Of a stretch of DNA of 64,000 nucleotides, positions 25,549 to 60,223 are shown piece by piece. The DNA comes from Cytospora piceicola (lineage: Eukaryota; Ascomycota; Sordariomycetes; Diaporthales; Cytosporaceae): assembly GCA_023375675.1 (NCBI GenBank), contig JALQBC010000002.1:496001-560000 (forward strand), read 5' to 3'. How positions within the stretch are numbered: position 1 is the stretch's first letter; each line of letters starts with the position of its first letter. Both the position numbers and the translations under genes were made by a program. The notes beneath the pieces were generated by a model. That model was not told where the DNA came from. It ran no database searches and saw only the letters and a list, made by a program, of their open reading frames with translations.

Positions 25549-25640
25549 GTATACCGCCTAAAAGATCTTTCGAGCGGCGATAATTTTACTGATACTTGTA
25601 CAGTCTCGACCCCATCCTCACGACTACCTCACAATCCACC

Positions 25641-26288: not shown

Positions 26289-26420
26289 GCAGGTCTTAAC
26301 TCCTGAGACACTATCTGATACATGTTTTTAGAGTGCATTTTCGAGTATAATACATGTTTTTAGAGTGTATTTTCGAGTTTAAGACAGTTTCTAGAGTGCA
26401 TTTTCGAGTGTGATATATAC
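26289..26420 (+). repeat. Left terminal inverted repeat with three internal 33-36-bp repeats
   Basis: Starts GCAGGTCTTAACTCCTGAGA. Three degenerate tandem units follow, each with TTTTTAGAGTGCATTTTCGA or a close variant (first bases near 26,325, 26,360 and 26,395). The same order, including an intervening TTAAGAC, is seen in reverse complement at 60,092-60,223. Confidence 0.88.
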
Positions 26421-26454
26421 ATCGTGAGGTTTACTCCGACCTTCGAGGCTAGCT

Positions 26455-26800
26455 TTCGAGTCTGATCGTAGCTATCTCTCTGTCTTTATATCGCTTTCGA
26501 ATCTAATTGTAGCTATCTCTGTCGCCCTCGACTTTCGACCTTCGAACCTGATCGTAGCTATCTTTTTATCTCTATGTCGCCTTCGAATCTGATTGTAGCT
26601 ATCTCTGTCGCCCTCGACCTTTATCTTTCGAGTTTAATCGTAGCTATCTCTTTATGCCGCCCTCGACCCTCGACCTTTGAATTTAATTATAGCTATCTGT
26701 CTCTATATCGCCTTCGAATCTGATCGTAGCTATCTCTGTCGCCTTCGATCCTCGTCCTTCGAATTTAATCGTAGCTATCTGTCTCTATATCGCCTTCGAG
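26455..26800. repeat. Eight-copy array around TAGCTATCT
   Basis: The core (A/G)ATYGTAGCTATCT occurs eight times at about 40-50-bp spacing. The linkers alternate between CTCTGTCGCC-CTCGAC and CTCTATATCGCCTTCGAA types, so the real period is a pair of units. It lies directly inside the left terminus and has no counterpart at the right end. Confidence 0.85.
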
Positions 26801-26863
26801 CCCTAGCTAATAGTCTTCTGTTTATCTAACCGTAGCCGTGTAGGTAATGTTTCTAGTACATCT

Positions 26864-27550
26864 TACGGTCGGTCCGCCCCGGAAGATTTACGTACGATAC
26901 TTTTTACAGCCGGTCCGCTACAGAGCACGTAACGTATAGCTACGATGCCTTTACGGTCGGTCCGCTACGGAAAATATATAGCTATAATACCTCTTACGGT
27001 CGGTCCGGGCTATACGGAGTAGGAAAAGCGATACTAGGCTACGATGCCTTTTATAGTCGGTCCGCTACAGAATACGTAACGTATAGCTATAATACCCTTA
27101 ATAGTCGGTCCGCCCCGGAAGATCTACGATAGCTACGATGCCTTTTATAGTCGGTCTGCTACAGAATATATAACGTATAGCTATAATACCCTTAATAGTC
27201 GGTCCGCCCCGGAAGATCTACAATAGCTATAATGCCTTTTATAGTCGGTTTGCTACGGAACACGTAACGTATAGCTATAATACCTTTTACGGTCGGCTTA
27301 GGCTACGCCGGGTAGGAAAGGCGATACTAAGCTACGATACCTTTTACGGCCGGTCTGCCCCGGAAGATTTATAATAGCTACGATGCCTTTTACGGTCGGT
27401 CTGCTACGGAATACGGAAAATATAACGTATAGCTATAATACCTCTTATAGTCGGTCCGCTATAGAACATATAACGTATAGCTACGATATCTTTTACGGTC
27501 GGTTTGCCGTAGACACTTATAGTCGGTCCGTTATAAAACACGTAACTGCC
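26864..27550. repeat. About 15-copy array around GGTCGGTCCG
   Basis: Units of about 40-50 bp contain (G/A)GTCGGTCCGC and end in ATAGCTACGATGCC or ATAGCTATAATACC. Three subtypes alternate (CCCCGGAAGAT, CTACGGAACACGTAACG and GGCTACGCCGGGTAGG). The GC-rich core survives better than its surroundings. Only this end carries the array. Confidence 0.85.
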
Positions 27551-27779
27551 TATATAATAACCTTGCTTTTACGCCTATTAGGCCCTTTATAACTGACTTT
27601 CTAGCTATAATTCCTATATCGCCTATATCTTATTCTATAGCTGTTTAAAGCTACCTAAGAACCTAGTTAATTTCGAGTATTTTAACTAACCTCGAGTTAG
27701 TATCGTTTAATACTAATTACCTTAATACTAGATATTATATATACAGAAAAAGGAGCAGGAGATATTAAATACTTAAAAA

Positions 27780-27900
27780 GGGCGCGTATGCCGGCGTAAT
27801 ATTTAATTTATAATTTTACCTCGAAGGGCGTATACGTCGGCGTAAACTGTAAATAAATAAATAAGAAGCCTTATAGAGTATATACGCCGGCGTAAAACTA
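27780..27900. repeat. Three copies of GTATACGCCGGCGTAA
   Basis: Three occurrences of a 16-bp GC-rich near-palindrome (variants GTATGCCGGCGTAA and GTATACGTCGGCGTAA) about 45-60 bp apart in AT-rich DNA. Confidence 0.75.
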
Positions 27901-29462
27901 AACATTTAAACTAAACTCTTATATAAAAGCGTTTTACTAAACTAAGTCTAAAAGCGAGTTTATAAAAGCGTATTTAGCTATATATAGCTAAACACGACCT
28001 TTACTTACCGGGGCGCTTACCCTACTAAAAATAAACCTTAATACGAGATCTTCGAAGACTTTATAAATAAGACTACGAAATACCTTAACCTATTAAGCTT
28101 TAGCTCTACCGGCTAAAGTATTTATAAGAATACGATAGGCCGGCTTTACCGGGCCGGTAATAACAGTATAAGTATAGCTGCTTTAAGTATAGTAAACGTA
28201 ATATATTTTTATACTCGAAAAACTACTTTCGAAAACGTCGAAATACTATTCTATACTTCGACTAGCTAAGGCCGATCTTATATAACTAATATATAAGTCG
28301 GCGTATAGGCTACTTTTAAATATCTCGGGCTTAAAAAAGTCGTTTTTAGTCTTACTATTAGCCTTACTTTTAGCTTTTTAAAGACAGACGGACTAACGGC
28401 GAATAATAACAGCTATAAGTAAGCCGGGGTCGTTATCGTTATTATTATCGTTATCGTCGTCGTTAGAAGAAGAAGGGGAGGAGAAGGGCTCGGCTAGACA
28501 GCTATATATATAGACAGCTATATACTAGTTAGTAATATAAACGATAATACTCGAGATAAGTAAGGAATATAAAAGGTAGTAACAATACTTAAAATAAGTA
28601 AAGAATATAAATAGCAGTAATAATACTCGAGTAAGTATAAAACGCGATAGATAATTTATATAAATAATAAATAATAAAAGGCGTAACTTATACGAAAAGA
28701 GGCTTAAGCCGCCGATTTTACTTTTATAAGTAGGCTTCGAAGCCGCGCTCTTTAATTATAAAAGTTAGTAATTATTTTCGGATAGTAATAACTAAAATAA
28801 ATAAAATAAGTTAATATATATATACTCTTAATACTACCGGCGTAGCTTTTCTTTTTACCTAGTAAGTCGTTAGTATAAAGGTTATAATCGAGCTAAAGAG
28901 CGTATATACTAGCCTTTATAGCCCGGGCGGCTGTAAGTAACTTAGTAAGAGAGGTAAAGGGTATTTTATCTATATATAATAGTTAGTTTTATAATTACTT
29001 TAATCGAGCTATAGATAAAAAGCGTAATACGAACTGTTATTATTATTATTATTATTGTTATTAGTAGTAGTAGTAGTTATAATAGTAGTAATAGTAGTAA
29101 TAGTAGTAATAAGGATGTTTTTTAAGCTTAACTTTAAAAACGCGTTTAAAAGTACCTAAGTATATACTTATATTAAAATAATAGAAAGCGAAAACACGCT
29201 AATAATAGAAAGTAATTTAATTATATACTATATAAAGTAATTAAGCTTTTAAAAAGAACTCCGGCCTTAAAAGCAGCGAGGCCGGTATAAACGCTAGTAT
29301 ACCCGGTATATTAAGTATATAAGTACGTACTTTACTTTACTAGAAATAAATATAGTAGCTCGAAATAAGTATAGTAGCTCGAAATAAGTACGGTATAGCT
29401 TTCGAGCCCTTTAGATAAAAGAGCTTATCTACGTCGTATTACGTAATTATATACTTCTAATA

Positions 29463-29890
29463 GCCTTTTTTATACCTTAAGTACTAACTACTTAGAAACT
29501 TACCTTAAGTATCTTAAGTTACCTTAAACACCTTAACTCGCCTTAAGTATACTAACTACTTTAAGCACTTTAACTTACCTTAAGTATACTAACTACCTTA
29601 AGTATCGTAACTTACCTTAAGTATTTTAACTCGCCTTAAGTATCTTAACTCTACCTTAAGCGTGTTAACTCGCCTTAAGTATACTAACCCGCCTTAAGTA
29701 TACTAACTCGCCTTAAGTATCTTAACTCGCTTTAAACATTTTAACTCTACCTTAAGCGTACTAACTCGCTTTAAGTACCTTAACTCGCCTTAAGTACCTT
29801 AACTCGCTTTAAGTATCGTAACTCGCCTTAAGCATACTAACTCGCTTTAAGTATACTAACTCGCCTTAAGTATACTAACTTACTTTAAGC
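29463..29890. repeat. 19-bp minisatellite, about 20 copies
   Basis: Tandem units of the form TTAACTCGCCTTAAGTACC, with variants CTAACTCGCCTTAAGTATA and TTAACTCTACCTTAAGCGT. Most copy-to-copy differences are transitions. Confidence 0.85.
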
Positions 29891-29929
29891 ATTCTAGTTA
29901 GTAATAAGTAACCTAGTCGCTTAAGGTTA

Positions 29930-30135
29930 GTTAAGATACGTAAGGTATAGTTAAAAGGCTCGAAACTAGTTTATAGTTAGTATTAAAAGGTATTAACTCG
30001 AAGGTAGCTAAAATACTTAAGAAGTAGTTAAAAGGCTTGAAACTAGTACTAAAAAGTGCTAACTCGAAAGTAGCTAGAATACTTAAAGTATAGTTAAAAG
30101 GCTTAATATTAGTTTATAATTAGTATTAAAAGGTA
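29930..30135. repeat. Three tandem units of about 75 bp
   Basis: Each unit contains TAGTTAAAAGGCTCGAAACT, then a TTAGTATTAAAAGGT-type segment, then AACTCGAAGGTAGCTA. The array runs directly into the palindromic element at 30,120-30,180 and shares its terminal motif. Confidence 0.75.
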
Positions 30136-30180
30136 TGAACTTATAGTTACTAACTATAAGTTCGCACCTTTTAATACTAA
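30120..30180. repeat. Palindromic mini-element, copy A
   Basis: Two 30-bp arms around a single base: TTAGTATTAAAAGGTATGAA with ten more bases, then its reverse complement. Only two positions mismatch (AT versus GC), both RIP-type transitions. It is the best-preserved of four copies in the block. Confidence 0.88.
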
Positions 30181-33100
30181 CTGCGAAACTTACTTAGAGT
30201 TAACGCCCTTTAGTATTAGACTTTAATACTTAAAAGCAAAAGAGATATAATATATAGTATTATAAATAATAAAAAACGATTAAATATATACCTTTACTCG
30301 ATATCTTAATTTTCGTTATTACTTTCGTTACTATTAAAATCGTCGTTACCTTCGAAGCCGTCGTTACCTTTATCTATAATATCGTCTAACGTTACCTCTT
30401 ATACTAGCGGTAATATATTACTACTCGACGGCTAAAAAACGGCTAGCCGTATTAAACGCCGACGTATAGTAATCTCGATTTCGGTACCTAATTCTATATC
30501 CGGAGACTAGCGTTTTAAGGATCGTTTTAAAGTATACTAGTTATTATTAGAAATCCGACGTTTTAAGGTTAGCTTTATAATGCTTAAAACCGGTTATCTA
30601 GTAGCGACACCCTTAATAGCACCTCTAGTAGTAATACCTTTAGTAAAGATACCTTTAATAATAACACCTTTAGTAAAGATACTTTTAGTAGTAATACCTT
30701 AAGCAGCTGCTACGCCCTTTATAGCGATAACCGCTTTACCCTTCCTAGAAGCCTTACTTTAAGGTAATAACTATAAAGTCCGACTATCGCTTTCGGTAAG
30801 TAGCTGATTTTCTCTTTTAAAATATATATATACTTTAGCGTAGGCGATTAAAAGGTTGTCGTTAATTAGCTTAAGAGTATCGCGGTTTTAATAGCATATA
30901 CCTGTCGAGCGGTGTTTTATAAGGTCTGTTAGTTATTTAAAAAAACTATAGAGGTATTTAGAGTATATGTATTCCTTTAAGTCGGTAGGGATACTGTCGT
31001 TACTCGAGAGGGTATTTTATAAGTTCTTAAAGAGGTTTTTAACCTTCTTTATAAGGTTTAACGGCTCGATCTTAGGTGTTAGATAGCACTTTACTATATG
31101 TTTTTTAGACCGGTAAGAGATATTAGTCTTAAAGTTGTAAAGCTAATAATAATACTTCTATAGCGACGGGATAAAAGTAAAATTACAGAATTCGTATTCC
31201 GGTGTTTTAAAATGTTTATTACGATAAGATATACTTATAAAGCTTAGTTTATAAGTATAATATATAAAAGGTTTTACCTTTTATTCGTCGCTCTAGCCTT
31301 TCTTTTACAGATTACGATCCTACGCAGCCTTATATTTATTCTAAGAGTCTTCGAATATTCTCGATCGAAGAGGCTTTTAAACCTGCCTAGCCTTCTACTT
31401 CTAAATAGAAGCTTCGTCGATATTTTAAAAGCTGCCTTAAAAAGGAGAGTATAATACGCCCTTTTTATAGATCTCTGAACGTTAATACCTATACTAATAC
31501 TACTATATACAGGTTTCGAAATAACAGACCGAACACTAGTACTTATCAGACAGCCCTTAGTTAGGCTTACTTCGGTTGTTTATATATCGTTAGTAGAATC
31601 GGGAGGATTAATACTAACTAATAACACTAATACTATTAGCCTAGAAAAAGCTGTATTTATAAACTATCGTCGAATATAATCGCGCTTCTAAAGATATATA
31701 TTACTAACGGTGTTTTTCTAAATTTACTTTATCTTTATATCTTTCCCGCTTCCCGGTATAGTCGATATAGTTGTAATAAAAGTATCTTTAAAAGAACTCG
31801 TAAGCTTAATCGAAAACCCTTTTTATATCGAGATAAGAGTTAATATCCCGATAAGCTTTTAAAGCTTCTTAATTAAAGAATAACCTTTAGTAAATATTAT
31901 ACCTATACCTTTACTTACTATAAAAGCGGTTAAAGTAGTATTAAAGTTAGCCGGCGTTAAAGTTACCGGTATTATAATTAAGGTACTAGAAAGAGAGTAG
32001 CTAGTCTTAACTATTTAAAAGTTAAGTATATAAAGGGTCCGGCAGGTTAAGGTTTATAAACGACGAATCGGAAGCTTTTATTTTAAAACGTTCCTTTAAA
32101 GCTTATTACTTTTTATTAAGTTTAAAGTCGAGCTTTTAAAACAGTCTACTTATCGGGATCTATAATAGGTAAGTAAACTAAGCTAGCTAAAATAAAGGAT
32201 TATAAAAGCCTATAACCTTATTAGTAATATTACTATTTTAAGAAACTCTATAAAACTCGTTTTAAAAGCTCTTTACCGGATCGAATAGGTCCGGGTATAT
32301 AATAGGTTTAACTACCGGTAATAAAAGACTTTAGTACTTCGAAAATATTACCGAGTTCGGAGGTTTTTATATAGTAAGCACGTAACAGAAAGGGCTATAC
32401 TCGAAAAGTATAATCGGGAAGCCTTAACGGTTTATAATCGACTATTAGACCTCGAATATAAAGTTTAGTAAAGAGCGGTCTTTATTTAGCCGCCGGTTAT
32501 TAACCTTTTAAATAGCTTAAGCGACTTATTATAAAACGTCGTAAATAATTTAAAAAAAGAACCGCTTTTAATAAACACTTAGTTTAAGCTTATAAAGGTC
32601 GTAGCGCGTTATAGCTTTATTATAGGCTATATAGAAACGAGATAAAACTAATATAGTATACAGAATACCGATTATATAGCTAAGAGAACGTAGCTAGCTA
32701 TAGTAAAAGATATAAAAAGGACAGATATATATCTTATCGAAAAGTATATAGGTTTTAAACTCCGATTTACTAAAGCCGTAGCTTTTAAAAATAGTTAAGT
32801 AACTTTATTAAATCCGAAACGCCTTTTAAACTAATACTTTATTAAAAGATCTGCCTTATATATATTAAAATATAAAAAGCGGATATTTAGCCTCTATAAG
32901 CTTTTCCTTAATAATTCGTGTTTTTTTCTTTATCGAAACGGTTTAAAGTATTATCTTAAAGTTCTTATTTATCTGCTTAGTCTATTTCTTATACCGAGCT
33001 TAATATTTCCCGAAAAACCTTAGTAAACGTCGAGCTACTACTAAGTTCTTTATAGCTACGGTAAGCTATTAGAAAATAGGAAGACGTTAAGCTTAAAGAG

Positions 33101-34684
33101 TCTCGAAATCTTACGAAACTTTTTACTAAAATATATCGATTATAAAGTCGAAGAGAAACTAATTTTAGCCTTTTACTTAGTTTAAAAAGCCTATTATAAC
33201 TGCTATATTAGCCTTTATATAATAGTATAAGGCCTTTTAGCGATAAGTAAACGGTATAAAAGCCTTTAAAGATAATATAAATAGTAAAGCTAGGAAAAAG
33301 GTATTTTAGCTAGTTAAAAAGTCGAAGGCTTATAGGTTTAGGAAATCGTCGGCCTTTACTAATATAACTTTAGTTAACGGGATTAAATAAAAGTTATACC
33401 GGAAGCTGTTTATAATATCTTTAAGGCGTTTATTATACTCCTTTTTAAAAAAGCCGGGTATAAGTTTATCGTCTCAAATACTCTTCCGAAATATATATTC
33501 CTTTAGTTTTAAGGTAAAAATATTTTTAAGACCGACTAAGAATACTTAGTTACTAACCTTTTAGTTAAAAACTACTTTAACGATAATTACGTACTTATCT
33601 TTAATAATATAAAGCTTAAACGATCCCTTAGGCTTATTCTCGTCCTTAGTATCGCCGAGCTTTTAAATAATCGCAGCCTTCTATAGCTTAATAACCTTTT
33701 TAATACTTTCGTCTTAACTTATAACCGCCGTCGGGTTATCCTTATAAACAATCTTACGTTATATCTCGATAATAAAAAGTTTATACTTTTACCTGCTTAG
33801 TTATTAAAGTACGTCGACGATTATAGTAAGTAGAAAATAAGTATCGATACCGGCTAAAGTTAAAATAAGTACGAAGAGTTTTTAAATATAAAGAGTAAAT
33901 ATATATTACGAAGCCGACGTATCGAAGTATAAAAGCTTACCTTTATACGTAACGATTAAAGCCTAATATAAGCCGACAGATAATAAGTTTATAATCGTAG
34001 TATAGATAAAGGCCGACTTAATATTATCTTTAGTTTCTTAACCGAACCGGGCGATAATATCTTTTAGTTCGCCTATTAGTAATAAGGTTACCTTAAGGAA
34101 CTAGTATTTAGTATTATATCTTTATTAAGCGAGTTAGACTAATCTATTTAGTTTATCGTTATTAAGCTAAGCCCGCCGGTCTATAGACCGGAAAGCGTTA
34201 TTAAGGTAGCGTGTATATATTGCTTATAGCAGGTTTTTAAATATATATACTCCTGTCTGCTACTAAGACCGTAAAGGGCCGTCGGCTAGCTTATCGTCCC
34301 CTCGGATATAGAAAGACTGCTTAGCGATAGCGGTAGTAGTAGCGGTAGTAGTAGCGGTAGTAATAACAGTAGTAGTAGCGGTAGTAGTAGCGGCTTACTC
34401 TTATATATCGACTTCCTTTAGATTTAGTTAGTATAGAAGTAAAGACTAAGATATTTAAAGAGTTTAAACTTATTATTAATATTATTTTATTATAAATATA
34501 AGGATTATTAATAGTTTATTAGCTTTTTATAGCTTTTAAGGTAGCGGTAGAGGTAGCTTTCGAAAACGATATCTTATCCTTCGAATTATTTATATTAGTT
34601 ATAAGATAAGAAATAGTATATAGTATCGAGCTTACCTTATTTATAGTATCCGGTTTCTACTATCTTATAAATATAGCTAAGAAT

Positions 34685-34970
34685 TAAGGTTTAAGGGATG
34701 AGGTTTAAGGGATGAGGTTTAAGGGATGAGGTTTAAGGGATGAGGTCTAGCAGATAAGGTCTGTAGAAATATAGTCTAGCAGATAAGGTCTGGGAATTAA
34801 GGTCTAGCAGATAAGGTCTAACAGATAAGGTTTGTAGAGATATAGTCTAGCAGAAGAGGTATAGTAGATAAGGTATAGCAGATGAGGTCTAAAGGATAAG
34901 GTTTAAGGGATAAGGTCTATAGAGATAAGGTTAGGCAGATAAGGTCTGTAAAGATAAGAAAATTCTAAGA
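34685..34970. repeat. Array of AAGGTCTAGCAGATAAGG-type units
   Basis: It begins with four near-identical 16-bp units (GAGGTTTAAGGGAT) and changes into a roughly 18-30-bp unit with TCTAGCAGATAAGG and TCTGTAGA. Confidence 0.8.
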
Positions 34971-35059
34971 AAGTTCGTATAAAGGAGGTAAGCCTTTAAA
35001 TCTGTATACCTAAGTTATTTACTTAGCGGCTGTTTAAGGCTATTAATATAGCTTTAAAC

Positions 35060-35330
35060 AATCTTAAAGTATATCGGTAGCTTTTAGAAATAACTCTAAA
35101 ACCTTAAACCGGTCTTTTTTATACTTTAGAATATCGGAAGGTTATAGTAAACTTTTAAAAGTCTTAAGCCGCTTTCCTTTATACTTTAATAATATCGGTA
35201 GCCTATAGAAATAACTTTAAAACTATAGACCGGTCTCTTTTATACCTTAAAATATCGGAAGGCTATAATAAGCTCTTAAAAGTCTTAAACCGCTCTTCTT
35301 TATACTTTAAAATATCGGAAGGCTATAAAG
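35060..35330. repeat. Five tandem units of about 61 bp
   Basis: Each unit starts AATATCGGAAGG or TATCGGTAGC and ends CCTTTATACTTTAA. Two subtypes alternate, one with AAGTCTTAARCCGCT and one with AAATAACTYTAAAAC. Confidence 0.82.
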
Positions 35331-36754
35331 CAACTTAGCTAATAATAATACTAATAAAAGTAAAAAGAATAATACTAAGATAGTCTTAAATAGTCGATAA
35401 AAAGCTAAAGGCTATTAACAGAAAGGCGTTAAATAATAGCCTTAAGCTAAAGGAAATCGCTATAATAGCCTTAAGCTTAAGTTTTAAGCCTTTTAATCGT
35501 TACTACTTACTTAAGCTATATATATCGCCTTCGAAACTATTAGATTTTAGCCTCGAAATATTATATATTTTACCTTTTATAAATACGATAGACTTAGTAG
35601 ATAGTATATAGCTAACCTTATCGCGATACGTTTTTTTATAGCAGACCGTTTAAACGAATCGCAGATTTATATTAAGTAGCGGTTTATAAAATAATTTTAA
35701 AAACTAAGCTAAAAAGTAGGCTATCCTAATTAAAGACTAAAAAAGATAAGAAAAGCTTATAGTCCTTTTCGTACTTTAAGAATTTAAGCTACTATAAAAC
35801 GACCTACTCGGGCTAAAGCTACTCTTTTTTATAAATATAACTAAATACGAGATCCGGGAGTAAATAGACAAGTAAAATCCTGCCTTAACTAAAATAAATC
35901 TTATCGAAATACGTATTTAGGTCTGTTTTTATTATTTAAGTTCTAAAAGGTATATTATTAACTATTACTTAAGGTAAACTTTTCCGACGTTATATAGCAG
36001 CTTAATAGCTAGCTTTAAAATAGCTAGGTTAAGAAACCTTATAATAACCTATTAAGTAACTCTCGTTATAGTAGATATAGCAGATATAGTAGCTGTAGTA
36101 AATATAGTAGCTATAGTAAATATAGCAGCCGTAGTAAATATAATAGCCGTAATAGCTATAGTAGCTACCTGATAAGCCGAACTAGTTTAAAATAATAGCT
36201 GTAGAGCTCTATAGTAAACTTATTAATCGACGTATCCTTTAAGTTTATAACGAGTAAAGGATATAGTAGTAAGGACTGTTAATCGTTTACTTAGTAATTA
36301 TAAACGCCGTAACTAACGTTATAACCGATAATAGCCTATAACAGAATCCGATCGTATATAAGATAATATTATATAAAGTCTTAAATATAGCCGGGATAAA
36401 ATATTAAGATATAGAAATTTATACTCGGAGTAAGAATATCTAAGGCCTATATTTAAAGCGGTAAGGTCTTATTAAACTTATTATATATAATATCGGCGTA
36501 AAGCTATCGTTTTTCCGGTTTATCTTACTACCTTTTATTAAACAGAAAAAAACCTTTAAAGATATATATAAACCCGATATACCCTGAACTCCCGTCGGCT
36601 TAAATATAGCTTAGCTAGATAAGTAGCCGGCTACCTTACGCCGGCAGACTCTCTTATAGAAGAAAGATTAAATAACGGCTAAACAGGCTAAGTAATAAGC
36701 GACAGTAAGTACTAGTCTAATTTATATCGATATATTAATAAGTATTTAATTATA

Positions 36755-37100
36755 GATATAACAGAATATAATGTTTAGTAGGGTGTTTAGATTAAGGAAT
36801 AGAGTTAGTAATACTAGTTAATATATTATTTATAAAGATAACAGAGTATAATATTTAGTAGGGTATTTAGATTTAAAGAAGAGAGTTAGTAATACTAGTT
36901 AATATATTATTTATAGAGATAACAGAGTATAATGTTTAGTAAGGTGTTTAAATTTAAAAAAAGAAGTTAGTAATACTAGTTTAGTAATAAGACTGTGCGA
37001 TATATTAAAGTAGTATTTATTTTATAAATATAACAGGATATATAATATTAAATAAAGTGTTTAGATTAAGAAATAAGTTAGTAATACTTAGGTACTTAAG
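36755..37100. repeat. Four units of about 85-105 bp
   Basis: Each copy contains ATAACAGAGTATAATGTTTA followed by GTAGGGTGTTTAGATT and AGTTAGTAATACTAGTTAAT. Confidence 0.8.
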
Positions 37101-38744
37101 TAGTTTTTAAGTAACGAAACTAAATAGTAGCCCGATTTACGAAGTATCGAATATAAGCCTTAAAAAAGTTATAAGGCTAGTTAGTATTAAAAGGTATTAA
37201 AACGTTTAATTAATCAGGTTTAAAGTTAGTATCTATAGGTGTTAACTCGAGTGCTAGTTACGCTCCTTTTCTAATAGGTATATAGGTAATAAATAAATAT
37301 TATATACGTTACGATTAATGTTTAATTAGGGTAAATTATAGTAGTAGGAATTATTTAAATAGCATTATTTTAGCACTAAATAGTACTAACTTTATATAAA
37401 AAGATATATCTTCTACGCCCTATTAAGGTCTTGACTTTAACTTTAAGCTCTTCTTCTACCGCCTTTAACACGATAGCTACCTCCTTTTCGAAAGACTCGA
37501 CCTTAACGTTCTTTAGGTGTAGAGCCTTATTTAGGCTCGAAATAGAACGTCGCTCTTTATATATGTTAATACGCTTAGCCGTGCTGTTATCCGAGGTTAT
37601 AGTAGAAATGCTGTATCCGTAAGGCGATCGGAAGAGAGGTCGGGAGGTCGAAAGTCGAAAGTCTGCTTAAGGCGCAGATCGGTTAATGTAGCAGGTAAAT
37701 AACGTTTAGAGATATTAATTAATAAAATCGTAATATCGGTAAGTCTAGGCCGAGAGGGATATTGATTAACTATATGTCTTAGGGATTAAAAAGGTTAATT
37801 ACTAATAATGAAAAACGGTTAGCTAGTTAAAGTGGTTTCGTCTTTCTTACTAAAATTAAGATAGAAGGAACATTACTGTTAGACCTAGAACGGTAGCGAA
37901 ACTAACGTTTCGGCCTTTAGTATTTAAGTCGATCGGTAGCGTTCTTATTAATCTACTACTAAGAAGCTACCTCGCTCTTAAAACGGTATAATCTGTAGGA
38001 AATAACCTTTTTATTCCCTACGACGTATAATTAGTCGAGTTACCGAGTTACCGAATAGCTAAAAAGGAGCGGGGTCTAGTAGCCGAATATCGAGTAAATA
38101 AAGTGCGGCTTTTATACTAATTAATTTTAGCTTACTAACTATTCGCTTTAATAGTACTAAGAATAATAGTAATCGACTTAAAAGACTTATTTACCTAAGA
38201 AAAAAGTCTTAAAAAACAAAAGTATACTAAAGGTAAGTTTTACTTCCTTTAAATAAAGCCTATTAAAAATACTATAACGTCGACGAGTCTTTAAAGCTTC
38301 TTAATAGTCTTAGCCCTTTATAAACGCGATTTTATAGGTATTAACCTATAGAACTTAAGGTTATTTAAGTTATTTTAAATAGAAAATATAAATAAGCTGT
38401 TATATTATAAATTAATATCGATAAATCCGAGGAACCCGGAAAGTCTTATATAATCCTTATTTTTTTATTATTAATAACTTAAACCTTAGCTTTATTATTT
38501 AATAAAGTATTATAAAAATTACTATCTACTAATGCTTTTTAAGAGTAATAGTTAATTAATAATAAGGATAAATTATAGTATAAGTTTATATTTCTAAACA
38601 TCTTTTAATCTATCTCTTTATAAGCCGGCTTAAGTAAAGCGATTTCGATTTAAATATAGTAAAAGTATTATCCTACGATAAAGCCTGCGGTAATAAATCT
38701 AATAAGGTAACAGAATAACAGTATAGCCTACGGTAATAGATTTA

Positions 38745-47710: not shown

Positions 47711-50700
47711 GGCGTATTAACTTAAAAGGTGCTGTTTAATAAAAAGGGTTTTATTAATACTTAAATAAAATACTTTAAATAATACGATAACACTTAATTA
47801 ATTAAATCTTTAAAACGTTATAATTCGAGACCTCGGACTTATAGCCTTTACTTCTTTAAACGCTACGTCTTTATATAACGCTACTAAAACCCCGGTTATA
47901 AAGCCTGTCGGACCTTCTTCGTCGTCGGCTTATTTAAAGACGACTTAAGCTACGCCTTAAAGTACGCCTATTAGCTAGCCGCCGAACGTTAAACTTTTAA
48001 TAGCCGGCCGGCTTCCGGCTACTTAACGTAGTAGAAGAGTAAGTACCTTTAATAGGCTACGACCTATATAAAAGACTTAACTATAAAGTAAAAAGGGTAA
48101 ACGAGCTAAGGCCGGTCGACCTTTATATATACTTTAGCTTAGTAAACGTAATATAGGTTTAACGTAATAGCGGAGCCTTTATAGAACTAAAGGGGTAGCG
48201 TAGCTTTAAATGTAAAAAAGGTATACTACTGCGGGCGTTTAAAAGCGAAACCTTTTAATAGCTTATAAACGTCTTTAAGTATTTAAATCTAAAGTAAGAT
48301 ATACTTAAGTATTATAAAGAATATATACTATTACGTTAGCTAAGGCTTATAATATATAAATAAGTATAAAACTTATTTAAAAGAGATAAGGTAAGCTATA
48401 TTTTAAATACTTTACCGGAATAAGAAAACCGTTTTAGTAAAAGATAAAGGTATAGTTATAATACTTTATTTTAAATTAGTTAATATTATACGGCTTTTAT
48501 ATAATATAGTTCGGGTTAATATATACCGAGTTATAATATATATAGTTCCTGTTATATTTAATAAACGGCTTATACTTAATAAAGTTATTAAACTAAATAC
48601 CGTTATAAAGCTAAGTTAAGAACTAAGCTTATACCTTAAATAAAAGCGTAATATAGTTACCTTTTCTATAGATAACGTATAGCGACGAGATTTTAATATA
48701 CGCCGTCGGCTTAAACTTTTACGTTAAAATTTTAAGCGGTATAACGGCTTAGTTTAAGGTTAAGAGTATATAGGTGTTAACGTAGCGGTCTGTTACGTTT
48801 TATAAGCTTATAAGCTTTATAATATACCGGTTTAGCTATTATTTAGCTTTATATATAAGCTAAATAATACTTTTTTACTAATAAGTTTTTTTAAAGATTT
48901 TAGTATTATATATAGGTAAGGTATTATAATAGTTACCGCGATAGTTTTAACGACGCTTTAAAAGGTTTAGGTCGAGGGGTTAAGCTAGCCGGTTAAGCAG
49001 GCTACTAATCGAAATACAGAGTAACGTTTAAAATAAAGAGTAAAGTAGTATAAAAGACGAAGGGCAGGGTATAAGAGTATAAGGCGGCGTAATAAGCGAT
49101 AAAGTAATCCGGCGTGATACTTTAAGCCCGATAATAATAAAAGTATAACTAATAGCTTTTAGCTATCTTTAATATTATATATATATATAACAGTAAAGAT
49201 TCTACTACTATATAAACGTTCTCTTATAGGTAATATTATTTATTAGCTTTTTATAATAGTAATATATAATACTATAATCGTTACTTATATTACCTTATTA
49301 AACTAATTAAGCCGAACGGCTAATATTATAAAAGTATAAACGAAGGTATTAATCGTATTATAGTTTTAAAAGACTTAAAAAATATTTATATTAATATAGA
49401 AGTCGACGACTATCTTCGAAATAGAATTAAACTTTAATAAAATCTATTAGTTTTATATAAGCCTCTTTTTAAAAGTAAAGTTCTTTATATATCTATTACT
49501 GTCTTATAAAGGTTATATATTATTTAGCTTATATAATTCTTATTTTATATAAATAAGTTATAAAACTAGCTCTTTTACTTATTTTAGTTAGCTTTATTTT
49601 ACCGGTAAGGCTTTATAGCTTATTATCTTTACTTTTATCCTTATCTCTGTCTTTATCTTTATCTTTATCTTCGTCTTTTTCTTTCCTATTTTCTTTATCC
49701 TTTTCTTTATCTTTATTTTTAGTATTATTTTATACTTATAAGAATTTACTATTTTTTTATATAATACTGTTTAAAAGGTAGTCGATATTTATTAAATCTC
49801 TGAGGTTTATAACGTTAAAGATTTACTTAAGTTTAAACGTTAAGCTTTTTTTTATAATTCGGAGGAACTTATAAACTATCCGCCGGTAGTTTTCCGTTTA
49901 CTTTTTAAAGTAGTAGATCGCTATAACGTTATCGACGATACCGAGCTAAATAAGGGTTAAGTAAATAAAGATATCGATACTAGTAGTTTTTATCGCGTCG
50001 GCGACTTTAAAGTAATAAAACTAACCGATAGTTAGCTTACTTTTTTAAAGTCTATTATAAAGTAGGTTATTAAGATAGTCGAAACCGAAAGTATTAAAAA
50101 AGCGGTTAACGGCTTTTTCGGTATTATTTTTTAAAGGGTTAATATGTTTTTCGGCCGTTTATAACTTTTTATAGTATAGTAAAGTATAAAAAGTTAAAGA
50201 CCTTTAGTAAAGGATTTTAAGCTAAAAACGTAAAAGCTTTTTAATACGGTAGTCGATAAGTATTTTAATAATATCTATAACTACTTAGTAAATAAAGGAG
50301 ATTAGTAGTATAATAGTAGTAGTATAAAGTATAAAGATTTATAAGACTATACTTAAATATTTAATTTAATATTTAGCTAGGTGTTTTATATAAAAAGCTA
50401 CGTTTAGTTTAATATTAAGAGTAAAGTGTATTACCTACTTTAAACACTTTATTAAGATATTAAATCTAGCTACCTTTCTTAAGCCTTTATTAAGAAAGCT
50501 ACTTAAACAGCTAGCCTTAAGTAGCTCTTTTAATAAAGGCTTAAGTATTTTAAACAGTTTTAATCGCGAATATACCGCCGGAATAATAATAATAACTTAT
50601 ACTATCCCTGTTTCTATCTGTTTTAAAACTGCTTTTAAACGTACTATTTCGTATTATAAAAACCTAGTATTAAAGTATTAAAAATAGCTAACCTTTTAAT

Positions 50701-53700
50701 ACCTATATATTAAGTACCTATATACTAAAATACTATTACTAATAAAACCTGCTGCTGTTAAAAATATATATTAAAAGCTATATAGCTCTTATTATACCTT
50801 ACCTCCTTTCTTTATCCGTACCTTTTTATAGAACTTTTTATAATCCCGGTAGTTACTATAAAACCTATAAAGAAGTTTTAAGTAACTAACCTTAAAACCT
50901 TTTATAAAATATTAGTTATTACTTATTTTATTAATACTTTTACCTTTTAGATTATTATAATAGTTTATTTTAATATAATAATCGTTAAGCGTAATATAGT
51001 TTTATTACTTATCTTAAGCTAAGGATATAAATCTTTAGACTTTATAAGAGAGATAGGTTTTAGTTTTTAAAAGTAATATTAAGTAATAGCTTAAACGGTT
51101 ACTTATCTTTAATAGTATAGTAATACCGGGTTAAATAGTTATAATAATAGTATTTCTTTTTATAGTTTTTATTTTATAGTTTTTATTTTATAGTTTTATA
51201 ATAGTTTTTTTTTTAGTTTAAAGGTTAGTTTTAAGTAGTTTTTTAGTTTTTATTTTAGTTTTAAATAGCTTTTTTATTTTTATTTTTATTTTATTTTAAA
51301 GAATAATACTCTTCGGCTAAAAGTAATAGTATAGCTATTAGTTTTTAAATAAGAAGAGTAGTAGTTTAGTTTTTATAGTTATTCTATTATACTATTATAC
51401 TTATAAACGACCTTATCTTTTTTAACGTTTAAATTATAAAAAAGTTATCTTTAAGTTTATAACGTTTCGCTTTTATTTTTTAAGGTTTAAGTATTATTAA
51501 TATAACGTATTAGCTAAATAAGAAAATATAATATAATTTTATTAACTATAACTTATATCCGTTTCCGACTATAATAGTTTGCTATAGATAAAGCTTTTAA
51601 ATAGTAAGCTTATCTTTTTAAAAGTAAGTATAATAATAAGCTTATTTTTTTATTACTTTAAACTAAGCTACTACTATTTAAAATATTTTATAATACTTTA
51701 ATATACCGTTAGTTATATATTTACCGAAGAATTTAAGCTTTTTATTATCGGCTATATATTAACTTCTTATTAGTACTTTACCTTTTATAATAAATACTTT
51801 TACTTTACCTTTTTTAAGCTATTATTATAATTATTAGTTTAAGTTTTCTTATAACTTTAAAAAAAAAAAAAAGTATATAACCTCTTTTTTATTACCGGTA
51901 GCTATAAATATAGCCGCTTTAATAATATTATTTATCGGGTTATATATAACTTAAGCGTTTTTAAAAACCGCTTTAGTAATACCTTTACCTTCGTTTATTT
52001 TACTGCCGGCCTTTAAAAAAGTTATATAGTCGACTATGTTTATAATTATTTCGACGTTAATATACCTAATATTAAGAAAAAAGATATCTTTTCGGCTATA
52101 ATTTATATTACTTCTTAGCTTTCGACTATAGCTAGTAAAGTCGAAATTACTTTATAAGCTAGCCTTTTTAATATAAAACTCCGGCGTTTATTTACTATTA
52201 ATAAAAAATAGTTAATAAATATAAACCTTTTTATAAACGACTTTATCGATATCTTTAAAGTTCTTAATATTAAAACGCGGTTCGATATAATAAGTCTTTC
52301 TTATAACTAAATATTTTAATACTAATAAAATCAGACGTCGGTATATTAGATATAAAAACCTAATACCGCTATTAAACCGGCCGAAGACGGTATATTAAAA
52401 AGATAAGCTATAATAAACTATAAGCCTTTTAAAGCTATTAAGAAAATAACGGCTAAACTCGATCTAACTAACCTAAAACGTTTAATTAACTTAGTAAAGT
52501 CGATAAGTATTTTACTCTATAAACTAACAGACGCTATTATTAATATAATAACGGTATATTAAGTACTTTATAATAAAAAGATAATCGCTAATATTTATTA
52601 AGGTAATAATAATAATAACGGTATTAATAGTAATAATAGATATAATAAAAAAAAGTAATAAGTTATTTAAATATCTTAAAAACCTATTTTTTTATAGCGA
52701 TTAATCTTATACTATTTATTATTAAGGTAGTAATATAAGTAGTAATATTATTTATCCTACCTTATACTTTATAAAATATTATCTTTTAGTTTAAGTTTTA
52801 AGTTCTTTTTACTAATAAACGTTTACTTTTTTATACTATAATTTAATAAGCCTTTAGTTAAGTTAATAAAAAGGTATAGTTACCTTTAATTCGTAGCTTT
52901 CGTACCTTTTAAGATATTAACTAAATTCTTTATAGTTTCTTAAACCTATTAAATCCTTACTTTACCTTTTAAAACGGTTTACTTAGTAACGCTTATATCT
53001 TATTTAGCTTAAACATTTAAAAACTCGACCTTTATAAAAGCTTAAAAAATAAATTATATATATTCGTTTATACGTCGCTTTTAACTTTCGACCTATACTT
53101 TTTAGTTTTAAATATACTACTTACTTTTCTATATACTAGCGTTTTTATTTTTAAGCTAATAGTCCGAAACCTTTATAAGCCTTTTCTTTTCGTCTACTAA
53201 ACGCTTTTACTCCGAAATACTCTATTTTCTTTCCGTTATTCGAACCTCGAAGGCTAAAACGTAACGTTTTCTTTTATCAAGCTTAAAGTCTATTAAAGTA
53301 TGTATAAAGCCGTTAAGCCTAGGGTATATATCCTATATAACATATATAAACTAAACTAAGATATTTTCGACATTATTTAGTTTACTATAAAAATAGTTTT
53401 AAAGGGTATAAGCTTTAATACCTTTAGTTAAAACTAACTTAGCCGGCTTATTTTTATATACTTTTTATACTATAAAGGTTTTAGTAAATATTATATTATA
53501 AACTATAGTAATAGAGAAGAGAGGTAATATAAGTCGGCTAGCTATTATAAATAGTAATATTTCGATTACTAGCTTAATAACTAAAGTTATATAGGTTATA
53601 TTATTTTATAATTATATAAACGTAATTATTTACTTAATTAGTATACTTTAAAATAGTAATTATAAGGATCTGAAAACCTATTTCTAATAAGTTATAAATA

Positions 53701-54925
53701 ATAAGTTAATATTAATAAGTATAAAAGAATAGTAAATAATAGTATTAATAGGTATTAATTAATTAAGAAAACGTTTTAAAAAAGTAAGTTATTTATTAAG
53801 TAAAGCTTAAATATAAAAAACTATCGAGTCTTTAAGCCTTTACCTTTAACTATCTGTTTAGCTATTTTATAAAGTATAAAGTCCGATTTACTTAACCTAA
53901 TTATATCTTTACCTATATTTTATTAAGGTTAAACATCCGAACTTTTAAGCTTTTTTAAATTTATCGGCTTTTTCGGACTTATCGGCCTTTTTAACCTTTT
54001 CGGCTTTTTTAGCTTTTTTAGCCTTTTTAGCCTCTTTTCGCTTCCGTTATTTAGCTGTAAGGCTATTACCGTCGAAGATTTACTTTAACGTCGATACCTT
54101 CTTTTTTTTTATATTACCGAAAATCGTATTAGCTATCTCTTTTTATATACTATTTACTTAGCTTACGGTTTTATTAACTTTATCGACCGTTATAGTTAAA
54201 AGCTCGGTTATAACCTTTTAGTTAAGATTATAGCTAAAGTTGTTACTGGTAAGCTATACTTTAAAAAAAGTATTTAGCTTATTATCGAGCTTTTTTAAAA
54301 AGTCTTATTCGAAGAGTTCTTCTTTTAAAGTACTTAATAATAATAGCCCGAGCTATTTATAAAACTCGGTAATATTATAAGTAACTATCGAGTTAAAATC
54401 CTTGATAACCTTAAGGTAATAGATATTTTAAATATAATAGTTAAAAGGCTAGCTTTAAATAATACGTAGTACTTTATATATTATAAAGGTTTTAAACTTA
54501 GTATACTTCTTTAACTAATTAAGGAATATAAGTTCGACGGCGAGTATTTATACCTTTTTTATATATACCTTATACTCGAAGTAGTTATAAACGGTATTAT
54601 TAACTTATAATATAACCTACGTTACCTTTATATACTAGTTAACCCGGATAAGGCGTTTAAAAGACTATATAGTAATACCGAAGTTTTAAAGATATTAGAC
54701 TTAAATACTATAGTAATAATAATAGTAAAGGTTTAGGCCGGCGGATCTATACCGCTAGTTTAGTATTAGAACGTTAATATTAGATATACTATTATTAAAC
54801 TTAAAAATATATATAGCCTTCTTTAATAAGGTTATACCGGCGCGGATCGATAAAACCGATAAAGAGACCTTTTTTAAAATAGTAACTAAAAGGCTGTTAA
54901 ATAGTTAGCTTATAATATAAAAGTT

Positions 54926-55090
54926 ATTAGCACTAAATAGTACGAATAAAGGGAGGACTGTTAGTACTAAATAGTATTAATAAGAGAAAAGGTTATTAGT
55001 ACTAAATAGTGTTAACAGGAGAAAAGGTTATTAGTACTAAATAGTACGAATAAGATTAAGGGTTATTAGTACTAAATAGTACTAACGAAA
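54926..55090. repeat. Five tandem units carrying TTAGTACTAAATAGTACTAA
   Basis: A roughly 34-bp period; each unit has the near-palindromic 20-mer (variants AGTGTTAA, AGTACGAA) and a GAGAAAAGG-type spacer. The motif matches the right end of palindromic copy B. Confidence 0.83.
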
Positions 55091-58000
55091 AAAAGACTTA
55101 TACTTATAGTTACTTTTAAAGAGTAGTAATTATAACTAAGGTCTTCTTTTACTTAACGGCTTACTTAACGACTAGCTTTAGTATACGGTAGTTAATTAAT
55201 AACTTACAGATAATATAGCTAAAGACGGCTTTCTGTTCGGTAAAGATAAAGTTATATAAGTTAAATCTATATATAAAAAGCTAAAGGTATAATAAGCTTA
55301 GATCTTTAGTATTATAAAGGATAGCGTCTATATACTCTGTGTTAAAGGAAATCGGGCTGTTACTTTAGTTAGCTATTTTTTTAACGGCTTATCGAGTATT
55401 TTTTTTCTTCTTTTTATCGCTTTTTATTTAAACTAGCTAAATTCCGGACTCAATAAAGTTACTTATAGTAACCTTTTCCGGCACGTTTTTTATAACGTCT
55501 TTACTTAATATAACGTTATAACTAAGTATATTTATCGATACGATTATTAGTATATAAAGGATACTAACGTTTAAATAAGACGCCGCCTTTTCGCTGTTAT
55601 CGATAGCTACTTCGACTTAGCTTTTTTTTAAAGGTAGCTCGATCTTATCTTTAACTATACCGGCGTTATTATCGCTTAATATAAAGTTTTAAAAGTAGTT
55701 ATTTATATAATTGTTTATAAAGTATTTATTAATTTCGTATTTTAGCTTATATATCTTTACTATATATAGAAGGATATTATCGTAAAAGTAAACTAGTTAA
55801 AGCTTACTGTTAATATATTCGGAGAAGTAAGTAATTATATTTATTCTCCGACGTATTCCGATATACTAAAGTATTACCTTTATAATATTTCGGCCGTTAT
55901 AGTTCTTACCGGTATTCCGTATATCTTATAAGCCGAGAGATAACGTTTATTATTACTAACTATAATATATATATATATAGGTAAACGTTACCTTCTGTTT
56001 TTAAAATATAATTTCCGGTAAAAACTTTAAAACGCTGTTTTTAATATTTATCGTAAGCTTTTTTTTAAAGAAAGCTATACTATTTAAGTTTATATTCTAC
56101 TAAAATAAAAAAGTAAAACCGTAGTAGTTTATAATTTTATTAATAGTAAGCGTAACAGATACTATAACTAAAAAGGTTAAGCTAGTTTTTTTATTTTTAT
56201 AATTTAGCTAGTAAGTTATACGGATTATTATATATATAAGCCGAGACTATCCGGTATAAAAGTTTTATATTATTTAATATTTATCGAAGATAATATACTA
56301 AAAGTAAAACTTAAGCGAGAACTATATTATTTAATAATAGTTAAAAAACTTAAGTATTATAAGTTTATCTTTTTTTATCTTTTTATTTATAAATATTAAA
56401 AGCTTACTAGTATTTATTTATATAAAAAGTAGTTTATTATAAATATTAATAAAGATTCTGAGCTTTTTACCGAATAAACTAACTTAGTATTTAGCTTTTA
56501 TATTATTATCGTTAACTTAGTTATTTTATTCGGGCAGCTTATCGTTAATATTATTATTAGTACGGTCGGCGTTATAAGCCTTTTAGTTTTTTAAGGCGCG
56601 AAACTTAAAATCTGTTTCTTTTTTATCGAAAGGTAAGTCTAGTTTTTATATTATATCTGCTTTACGTTAAAAAGACTCGTTTTTATATACGTTTAATACT
56701 ATTTCGTAAATATAAGCTATTTTCTTTTCGTTAAACTTTTAAACTAAGTCCTATATATTATATTCTTATAAGCTATAGTTGAATAGCAGATTACCTTTCT
56801 CTTTAATAAAGCTAAAGCTTTAAGTTTTTTTTAGTATCCGGAATACTAAGGTAAAGTAAGAGAAAAGCTAGATCTTACGTATATTTTATTTTATATTTAA
56901 CCGTTAGTAGTTAATTAAAGCAGTTAATACTAAATAATACTAATAGGAAAAAGGATATTAGTATTATTTAATACTAACTTTAAAGCTTAAATCTTATTTT
57001 CGAAGTATTCTTTTTTTAAACAGTAAGCTTTATTTTAATATAAAGCTAGTCGGTTATTATTATAGCCTGCTAAAGACTAAAGTTATAATTAGTATTACTT
57101 TTCGAACTATAGTAAAACCGGATATAAAAAGTTTTTAGTAGGAAGAACTAATAAATCTCGTCGAAGTACTATTCGATAATAGCGATAGGTAGTATAAATA
57201 TTATAAGTATATATAACTTTATACGCCTTTTAGTATCTTTATCCTCGGTAAAGTTTAGCTCGGCTAAAATAGTTAAACGGTTATTAATAGCTACTTTACG
57301 CTTTATTAAAAAGATAAAGGTTTTACTTATACCGACCTTATTAATAAGTAAAACGTTACGTATTACGTTATTTACTATAAGTTATAAGTAGTATATATTT
57401 AGTTAGCTAGTTAGTATATAGACTATATTAAAGTAGGTTAATATTAAAAAGTACAGAAAACGTTAATATTAGTACTAATAAGTATTAACTAGGAAATAAG
57501 GCTTACCGATAACTTAGAATTCCTTAAGTTTAATATTATATAAGTTTAAAAGCTTTCTGTTTTTACCGTTTCGCTAGTTTATATAAAGGTTTTAGTACTT
57601 AACGTCGCTTTTAGCCTTTTTATTATATATATTAAGTTTATCGAGTATAGTTATAAAATTAATATTAATCGGAAGTCGAAAAAGTAAAAAACTTAATATT
57701 ACGTAGTATTATTTTAGTCTGTTTTAATATTCGCCTTATATAAAAACGCCGCTACTATCTTTATCGACCTTTTTATCGTCTTTTTTAATACTTATAATAA
57801 GTATAGCGACGTTTATATCGAAGCTAGTAATATACTATTTAATATTAAAGGTTTCGGATAGCAGGATTTTAAAGTTCTGAAAAATATCTTTATCCCGGAT
57901 AGATATAACGTATAGCTTTTTTAAAAAACCTCGGGTATAGATCTTTTTAACTATAGTTAATACTATTTAGTAGTTTATAAAAGGAATGTTAGCTATAGCG

Positions 58001-58797
58001 TCGAAAACTTTAGCCTTATAATCTTATTAACGGCCCTTTATATAGCCGTAGTTTAGCCGGCTATATTAAAACGCTTTAGTTAAGAATCTTATATAATACT
58101 AAAGGTTTTAGTAGACGTTTTTTAAAGCCTTAATAAAAACGTTCTTTATTTCGTCGTATAGTTAGCAGAATACTATAGATATATCTATAACCGACTAAAA
58201 GGCCGTATTATTTAAAATACTTTTAACGTTATCGTTTATAAATCGTCTATATTACGCGACGGTAGTACGTATATAAGTTTAAATAGTATTTTTACTACCG
58301 GGAGGCTTCTTATTCGAGTTTAACCTGCCGGACTTCTTAATAGTAATAAAATCGGAGGTATACTACTATCGGATATATACTAGGTACGATATAAGGCTAC
58401 GGAATAAGTTATTATACGAAAAGCCTTATAAAAATTCTTTACTCGGTTTATAGCGTTTATACCGCTTAATACCTTTTATATTTAAGTAGATACTTATAAG
58501 GTAATAGGCGAGGTATTATAAGATCGCTATATTTATAGTCGCGTTTATATTAATCTTTTTAAGTTAAGGTATTTCGATGTTATTATTTCTAATTAAACGA
58601 ACCGGCTGTTTCAGGTTACTAAATATTAACTTATAAATCTGTTTTAAGCTAAGGTTTTAAAACCCTTCGACTAATTCGATATATTATTTATATACGTCTG
58701 TTAAGGTATATAGGTATAACTAGAACTTATATAGTTTAGCTTTAATTAAGAGGCTGTAAAACGTATACGTTATAAGGTTATTAGTATTATTTATAAG

Positions 58798-59032
58798 TAG
58801 TTAGTACTAAATAGTGTTAAAATTATCGAGGTCTGTTAGTACTAAATAGTATTAAGTTTATTAAAGTCTGTTAGTATTAAATAGTATTAAGTTTATTTAA
58901 GTCCTGTTAGTACTAAATAATACTAAGATTATCGAAGTTTGTTAATACTAAATAGTATAAGATTATCGAAGTTTATTAGTACTAAATAGTATTAAAATTA
59001 TTAAAGTCTGTTAATACTATTTAATATTAACC
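58798..59032. repeat. Seven tandem units carrying TTAGTACTAAATAGTATTAA
   Basis: A roughly 35-bp period with spacer ATTATCGAAGTCTG. It has the same core as the array at 54,926-55,090 but a different spacer, so the two arrays expanded independently around a common motif. Confidence 0.83.
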
Positions 59033-60091
59033 GGATATAAAAAAAGAAGGTTACTTACTTACCGATATAAGTTTAGTATATATATATATATTTTATCTTA
59101 TTAAAGCTAAAGATCTTACCGATAATTTCCGTACTTTTCTTAATAACTATAAGCGAATAAAATAATATAACTTTATTATATTTATAGCCGATAAAGTTAA
59201 AGTTACTTTTTACCTTATTTTTAAAAAAGCTTTAAAGCTACTTTTTTTAAAAGGTAAAGGCGTCCGGTACCGGGTTTTACTAATTTAAAACTAAATAGTC
59301 GCTTTTATCCTTTTTAGTATAGATCTTATATATAAGTAGAAATCTGAAATTTATAAAAAGCCTATACTTTTATAATATATTCGAGGTATTAGTAATAGCT
59401 TTAAACGTCGCTTTATCGACGACCTTTAAGAATTATCTTAGGTTCGAGAAAGTAAGTAGTATTTTTAGGTTTTAGTTTAATTTAAAATAGTTTTATAGAA
59501 ACTAAATTATAATAGTATTAACGTTTTTAGTCTTTTAAGCCTTATACGTATTACTAAATACGATATTAGTAAGCGTATTAAATCCGGGCTATTTATTATC
59601 GCTACTTAAAACAGTAGTATTACTTAGCTTTTTTTTACCTAAGTAACGAGATAAAATAAAAGGCTTAACTAAAGCTTTTAACTTAGCCGGAGCTTTTAAC
59701 TTAGTTAAAGCTTTTAGTTTTACCTTAGCCTTCCCTTTTTTAAGTAGTATCTTCGATTTAGCTTTTAAATCTATTTTATAGTTTTAACCTTTAATTTTAA
59801 GTTAGTATTTATTAATATAAGCTAACGGCTAAAAGGTTAAAAGAGTTAGTTATAAAAAAGAGGAATTAAATTAAAGATAAAAGGGTAAAGAAGTAAGTTT
59901 ATATAGCTAAAGGTTTAACGTAGGTATATCGCTTAGTAAAACTTTAAAATAAGCCCGACTACTAAGGTAGGCGTTAAAGCTATATAAGCTATAGAACCTT
60001 TAACTTTTATAAAAGCGGTTTTAGCCTTAAAGGGAAAGGGCTAAATAAAGGGTTTTACCTTAAAAATGCTTAAGATATATATACTTTAAAA

Positions 60092-60223
60092 ACCTGTTTT
60101 AGATATCGAAAATTACTTTAGAAATAAGTCTTAACCTCGAGATATACTCTAGAAATATATATTATATTCGAAAATACACTTTAGAAATATATATAAGACA
60201 ATGTCTTAAGAGCCGAGACCTGC
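60092..60223 (-). repeat. Right terminal inverted repeat
   Basis: Read on the minus strand it starts GCAGGTCTCGGCTCTTAAGA, then gives three to four units of the type TTTCTAAAGTGTATTTTCGA. It aligns with the left terminus over about 130 bases by eye. Most differences are C/T or G/A transitions, as RIP would cause, and this end is the more heavily mutated. Confidence 0.86.

Follow-up and report, generated by a model that had tools for sequence, protein, structure and literature searches.

What kind of unit is the AT-rich block of some 34 kb that lies between two halves of a host gene in Cytospora piceicola, and how did it get there? The window, that is, the whole stretch of 64,000 nucleotides analysed here, covers positions 496,001 to 560,000 of contig JALQBC010000002.1 (assembly GCA_023375675.1), and a first-pass annotation made from its letters had described in it a giant, single bounded unit of about 34 kb, saturated by repeat-induced point mutation (RIP). 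This description was borne out, as the terminus of the unit recurs genome-wide in convergent pairs, and we are all but certain that the unit belongs to a genuine giant transposon family with two subfamilies in a RIP-active fungus. The probability that this is a giant gene-encoding DNA transposon family together with its own mover is put at roughly 0.78, a figure that overlaps alternative explanations differing on the class of the mover. The coordinates of all features are collected in Table 1.

The copy number is the first line of evidence. Searches of the genome with the left terminus, the right terminus and an end of subfamily 2 yielded 47 matches (best 40 of 81 candidates scored), 48 matches (best 40 of 51) and 42 matches (best 40 of 76), respectively, of which 7, 21 and 11 rows were dropped, being either duplicates or tandem units belonging to a single end, and the remaining 98 collapsed to 87 termini. 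All copy counts are lower bounds, because only 40 candidates were scored per query. At least 87 distinct termini were thus placed in the 43.6-Mb genome, 76 of them in pairs and 11 unpaired, so that the genome search proposed in the first-pass annotation did reveal many further copies. The at least 38 neighbouring convergent pairs are spread over 27 contigs and have a total length of 1.55 Mb, or 3.5% of the genome. Seventeen of the 38 are 32.5-36 kb long, whereas random placement of the termini, for which rough lengths of contigs were used, gave a mean of 0.2 and a maximum of 3 in 1,000 trials. The full range is 18.8-102.2 kb, with 36 pairs at 33-62 kb and two outliers of 18.8 and 102 kb. The flanking sequences that were read are mutually unrelated, except for an end on C26 that abuts another element. 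A centromere or an assembly artefact, to which an AT-rich block might otherwise be attributed, is vanishingly improbable and, short of a misjoin at each junction, is ruled out by the distribution of convergent pairs over so many contigs, as well as by the unrelated flanks. Two of the loci deserve separate mention: the 18.8-kb pair (C79:1020499-1039295) may be a member with an internal deletion or a non-autonomous one, and at C26:348,098 the R-type ends of two elements abut directly (GAGGT/ACCTC, with the slash marking the junction).

In the window, the element has a GC content of 27.9%, compared with 53% in both flanks, and RIP indices of 1.76 for TpA/ApT and 0.14 for (CpA+TpG)/(ApC+GpT); the corresponding pairs of values for the flanks are 0.74/1.17 and 0.60/1.22. 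The ends had been placed to the base at 26289 and 60223, coinciding with an abrupt change of composition at both termini. The ends are indeed discrete, but the true positions, set from aligned copies, lie 35 and 34 nt further outward; the leftmost 2 kb have 43% and then 35% GC and contain several direct-repeat arrays, which makes the step in composition milder at the left than at the right. The predicted inverted termini of about 130 bp were found as terminal inverted repeats (TIRs) with 129 aligned bases and a score of 62, whereas none of 200 shuffles scored above 17. Their agreement in purine/pyrimidine (R/Y) letters (96%, at 80% nucleotide identity) indicates that they were almost identical before RIP. 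The TIR of about 130 bp lies inside the outermost 21 nt or so, which differ from one end to the other (CCCTGTYAAGCGAGAG.. in the L type, CCTCGATAACG.. in the R type), and therefore the positions 26289 and 60223 are near the edges of the repeated part and not the edges of the element. Fifty-two ends were gathered, 33 of which were typed by pattern (13 subfamily-2 L ends and 20 R ends) and 19 read by eye (17 subfamily-1 L ends and two aberrant ones, C22_458 and C43_e2). The subfamily-1 L ends read T followed by CCCTGTYAAGCGAGAG, the R ends read CCTCGAYAAC, and the subfamily-2 L ends read Y followed by CCCTTRTYAACC in 12 of 13 cases and G in its place in one. The end at C22:458 kb is a third, more diverged variant (GAGCTCGACAACGAGAGTAAATTC..).

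The second line of evidence is the target site. Both flanks were compared for 17 copies, 16 of them complete. No target duplication above chance was detected in the 16 complete copies, in which the longest direct repeat had a mean length of 1.50 nt, compared with 1.79 nt for mispaired flanks, and never reached 4 nt. The bases flanking the element are T on both sides in all 13 complete subfamily-1 copies and unequal in all three complete subfamily-2 copies (T/C, T/C and C/T), and a purine is found at position -2 in 14 of the 16 complete copies and at +2 in 15. The target is thus roughly RTR (purine-T-purine), and insertion is precise, without duplication above chance. The interrupted genes agree with this. 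The claim that the flanks in the window are halves of one gene held, as both match a neighbouring paralog in the same order (left half, positions 24414-24980, E 4e-28; right half, positions 25138-25377, just downstream, E 1e-6), and when the flanks are joined, the frame stays open until a splice-donor-like GTAAGT. We take this gene to be BTB-like. In C79 both halves match Pfam FAD_binding_3 (profile positions 39-182 and 244-348); the left flank stops two bases past a codon, the right flank has two bases before the next codon, and the reading frame closes only when the single T is counted. The same one-T rule yields a plausible C-terminus and start codon in C22 and C1, as read by eye. The genes flanking C22, C1 or the window copy have no Pfam match at 0.01.

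Precise insertion of this kind bears on several known mechanisms. A DDE transposon with a stagger of zero or one base, such as relatives of PHIS/Spy, would explain the T on both sides of the 13 subfamily-1 copies, and zero-base insertion falls within the 0-3 bp of PHIS/Spy. The unequal bases in subfamily 2 are contrary to a one-base duplication, the genome contains no match to DDE_Tnp_4 (one control matched), and PHIS/Spy-type elements are usually small; we consider this explanation improbable. Zero-base duplications have been reported for Harbinger relatives (PMC12730594). A giant Helitron-like rolling-circle element, slightly less probable still, would likewise insert precisely, without duplication and with a bias towards the neighbourhood of T, and its outer ends would be asymmetric, as they are here; the subfamily-1 L ends even give TCCC when the T is included. 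According to PMC5148889, the Helitron2-type elements of Fusarium (FoHeli) possess asymmetric TIRs, and in two of their subgroups the insertion site lies between TNAT and T; the present family resembles them in base-biased insertion without target duplication and in its asymmetric outer ends, and differs in having TIRs at both ends, no Rep match and a length of 34 kb, compared with about 5-11 kb in that paper. Moreover, the R end reads CGAGG and not CTRR, and none of three ends folded has a significant terminal hairpin (z 0.98, 0.12 and -0.89). The Helitron Rep domain (PF14214, Helitron_like_N) was found only outside the paired elements, at C14:1048290-1048820 and C57:602280-602882, and a strict RIP-tolerant HUH pattern is absent from all six copies inspected, a looser one occurring at shuffle frequency.

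How similar the copies once were can be judged from five full-length members of subfamily 1 (C14, which is the window copy, C79, C1, C23 and C22), whose sequences between the repeated ends, 33.1-33.9 kb in length, are colinear. Their alignment has 31,724 gap-free columns; 9,390 of these contain two letters, and 9,012 of the latter (96%) are transitions (4,562 AG and 4,450 CT), while another 169 columns contain more than two letters. Summed over the five copies, the base after an unchanged C is A in 169 cases and T in 5,087. Outside one mosaic block, the five copies represent saturated RIP on sequences that differed little beforehand. The block, at 4-10 kb of the element (window 30.2-36.2 kb; element coordinate x equals window 26247+x), is regarded as mosaic because transversions between the copies cluster there; outside it they are too few for their codon phases to be informative. 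About 0.8 kb of this block is nearly free of transversions even across subfamilies, which points to exchange between elements. Subfamily 2, represented by C5:179-214 kb, has the ends and one gene, P1, in common with subfamily 1, and its aligned interior is about 60-77% identical. This interior has the opposite orientation with respect to the end types (L and R), which means either that the end types are exchangeable or that recombination swapped them.

The third line of evidence is the coding content. As RIP makes transitions, purine/pyrimidine codon patterns survive it, and the window copy has a strong three-base periodicity of such patterns over much of its length. The element is densely coding, and the suggestion that it might be non-autonomous was not upheld, since it carries an SNF2-type ATPase gene and other long reading frames. 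A RIP-aware codon model was trained on simulated-RIP host genes of the window, so that its success in finding those genes does not test it independently; it placed all called segments of the window copy on the minus strand: those of P1, those of a protein made of short repeats, and exons totalling about 9 kb at 49.6-58.8 kb. Despite RIP, the repetitive sequence at 44188-44718 has three open frames, one on the plus and two on the minus strand.

In C5, a RIP-aware alignment of the SNF2-type gene to one host SNF2 protein over the C part of the helicase reached z = 14 compared with shuffles, and z = 9 for a second host SNF2 protein. The sole PDB chains listed for this gene are four chains of a helicase-like protein, presumably Mot1, with E about 0.1, and they coincide with the stretch aligned to the host proteins; PDB matches unrelated to SNF2 were dismissed as chance. 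In subfamily 1, a RIP-tolerant pattern for motifs V-VI, which recovers 8 of 14 host SNF2 proteins, has one match at the same place in each of the five copies, against zero in 60 shuffled sets. All five copies also contain a single match each to motif I and to a loose motif II (shuffled means of 0.23 and 0.07), with the motifs in the correct order on one strand. The direction of the gene relative to P1 is opposite in the two subfamilies. The top-scoring RIP-aware alignment of C23, at 22-25 kb of the element, was of low complexity (z 3.3) and was dropped.

P1 is the gene best conserved across both subfamilies and is, for this reason, the first candidate for a recombinase, although we find it rather doubtful that it is the mobility enzyme. 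It was found at 40 or more loci (best 40 of 56 candidates), 30 of them within pairs, with more than 70 stops in each and no intact version among them; in the window, positions 30300-33734 (1145 codons) contain 94 stops. It probably reads outward, towards the L end, as the minus strand is best for its two outer segments in all five subfamily-1 copies, the middle segment, in another phase, being mixed. A PolB-like YRDINS-type motif occurs in P1 of 6/6 copies, with a shuffled mean of 0.82 per copy, and was rejected as chance.

The orientation of P1 also matters for the possibility that the family belongs to the Starships, with a tyrosine recombinase captain that has diverged or is too RIP-damaged to be detected. 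Giant mobile elements of filamentous fungi are, in our impression, nowadays mostly discussed as Starships. The present element resembles them in being giant, gene-carrying and inserted in genes, and the view that its inverted termini are alien to Starships was too strong, as 18 of 20 curated Starships have TIRs in the survey PMC12153272. The same survey gives flanking direct repeats of 2-12 bp for 19 of the 20, whereas no direct repeat above chance is found here. No captain profile is located at an end, P1 probably does not read inward from one, and the family is set apart by its SNF2-type gene and by the presence of the unit in dozens of copies within a single genome. The 102-kb pair C51:118816-221013 (118.8-221.0 kb) does enclose RIP-damaged genes of the DUF3723 (at 146 kb) and DUF3435 (at 182 kb) types; the nesting of a Starship remnant in an element of the present family is the probable explanation. 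The DUF3435 profile (PF11917) matched only there, at C51:181.9-182.7 kb, in the interior of the pair and 38 kb from its nearer end, and in none of the other 37 pairs, though a damaged gene is detectable: genome-wide, profiles found members with 11 stops (DUF3435 at C51, across its two matches), 17 stops (Helitron_like_N at C14:1048290, with an E value of 1e-17) and 25 stops (DUF3723). Of these three profiles, only DUF3435 and DUF3723 matched within a paired element, that on C51, though diverged captains may be hidden by RIP. A Starship origin is rated as improbable as a DDE transposon.

An integrated DNA virus or Polinton-like provirus is very unlikely. Polintons combine large size and TIRs with PolB and a 6-bp duplication, and SNF2-type ATPases are present in large DNA viruses. 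Size, TIRs and the SNF2-type gene would fit such an origin, but no PolB_2 (PF03175) match was found in the genome (no match in control genomes either), six-frame scans gave no Pfam match below 0.05, the R-end pattern has no exact match in IMG/VR, and duplication above chance is lacking. The first-pass annotation had proposed profile searches for known movers; of these, DUF3435 matched only within the C51 pair, and PolB and DDE_Tnp_4 gave nothing. KDZ/Zisupton and Plavaka are likewise TIR transposons of fungi, but no KDZ profile match was obtained here (nor in control genomes), and PMC12730594 gives duplications of 8 bp for Zisupton and 2-3 bp for Plavaka. The tyrosine recombinase of Cryptons is of the NDC10_II type, a profile without a match in the genome or the control genomes. 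Regular expressions for DDE spacing and tyrosine recombinases gave counts within or near shuffle range. A search of Rfam gave no match. In searches of the open-licence PMC literature no such element was recognized, but one may nevertheless have been published.

Most likely, therefore, the element is an autonomous giant DNA transposon filed under no known family. That its mover is an element-encoded enzyme with precise, duplication-free insertion has about an even chance in our view. Well short of even odds is the more specific proposal of a new superfamily of giant DNA transposons in eukaryotes, most of them 33-46 kb long, with a mobility enzyme (perhaps P1) that is not related to any known transposase, and characterized by TIRs with putative recombinase-binding units, unlike outer 21 nt, RTR insertion and an SNF2-type remodeller. 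A new class of element is possible, and is unproven because RIP hides the transposase.

Several results weigh against a giant transposon family with its own mover. No transposase was identified by the tested profiles in the paired copies, apart from DUF3435 in the C51 pair. P1 has no relative in Pfam, PDB or the best 8,000 candidate proteins scored, and its minus strand is favoured rather than established: C5 agrees for the last segment and disagrees for the longest, and in several copies an earlier R/Y Viterbi model preferred to read the longest segment from the opposite strand. Pfam gave nothing below E 0.05 for read-through frames of the whole of C22 and C5 and 20 kb of C23, and only GLTT at 0.03 for shorter element pieces; this and the other weak names (DUF719, DUF7486, ODV-E18 and HC2) were dismissed as chance. 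The subfamily-1 SNF2 gene was not recognized by Pfam, PDB or the best 8,000 protein candidates scored, the strict form of the motif II pattern failed in every copy, and C5 was missed by all patterns that hit subfamily 1. Aligned to host SNF2 proteins, the subfamily-1 pieces reach a z of only 1.2 in C23 and of 2.4-4.4 in the other four copies, so that the case for subfamily 1 rests on the motifs and their order. It should be noted, however, that none of the best 40 SNF2-rel_dom profile matches lies in a paired element, though the elements carry an SNF2-type gene. Profiles can thus miss genes of the element, and the absence of a transposase is suggestive, not proved.

Under the proposed mechanism, an element-encoded recombinase, with P1 as the first candidate, would bind the repeated units in the TIRs and join or align both ends around a single T (CGAGG-T-CCCTG), and the DNA would then be inserted at a T within RTR. 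The SNF2 ATPase might help by chromatin opening or DNA movement. A burst of copies would have followed, later caught and mutated by RIP.

Table 1. Features of the window (positions within the 64,000-nucleotide stretch)
Feature	Position	Strand	Basis or remarks
Paralog adjoining the interrupted gene	24339..25590	+	Sequence comparison
Left half of interrupted host gene	25593..26252	+	Paralog match; no Pfam match at 0.01
Whole element	26254..60257		34,004 bp; ends set from aligned copies; target T readable at 26253 and 60258
L-type outermost 21 nt	26254..26274	+	Unlike opposite end; aligned copies
Left TIR with 31-32-nt units	26275..26407	+	80% nucleotide, 96% R/Y identity
Left subterminal direct-repeat arrays	26450..27400	+	30-, 31- and 94-nt units; AT content below rest of element
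P1 (probable strand)	30295..34422	-	About 1,370 codons; segments 34410-31950, 31949-31137 (other reading phase), 31136-30295
Short-repeat protein	44087..44821	-	KTEDLFNNSLY-like units
P2	48371..49282	-	Protein-level conservation with subfamily 2; C5 vs C23 40% over 374 columns
Coding segments	49578..52667	-	RIP-trained codon model
SNF2-type ATPase/helicase, three phase segments	52668..58834	-	Motif I 57319-57345, loose motif II 56262-56294, motifs V-VI 54635-54739
Right TIR	60106..60235	-	Terminal alignment
R-type outermost 22 nt	60236..60257	-	Aligned copies
Right half of interrupted host gene	60258..60857	+	Match downstream of paralog

If the proposal is true, at least 38 paired copies from two subfamilies, amounting to 3.5% of the genome, would have accumulated before RIP halted them. 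A giant family that is not of the Starship kind, has exact ends and an SNF2-type gene, inserts without target duplication and reached dozens of copies would broaden the range of vehicles for large DNA blocks. AT-rich islands are often dismissed as nested debris; the present case shows that such an island can be one mobile unit with defined limits.
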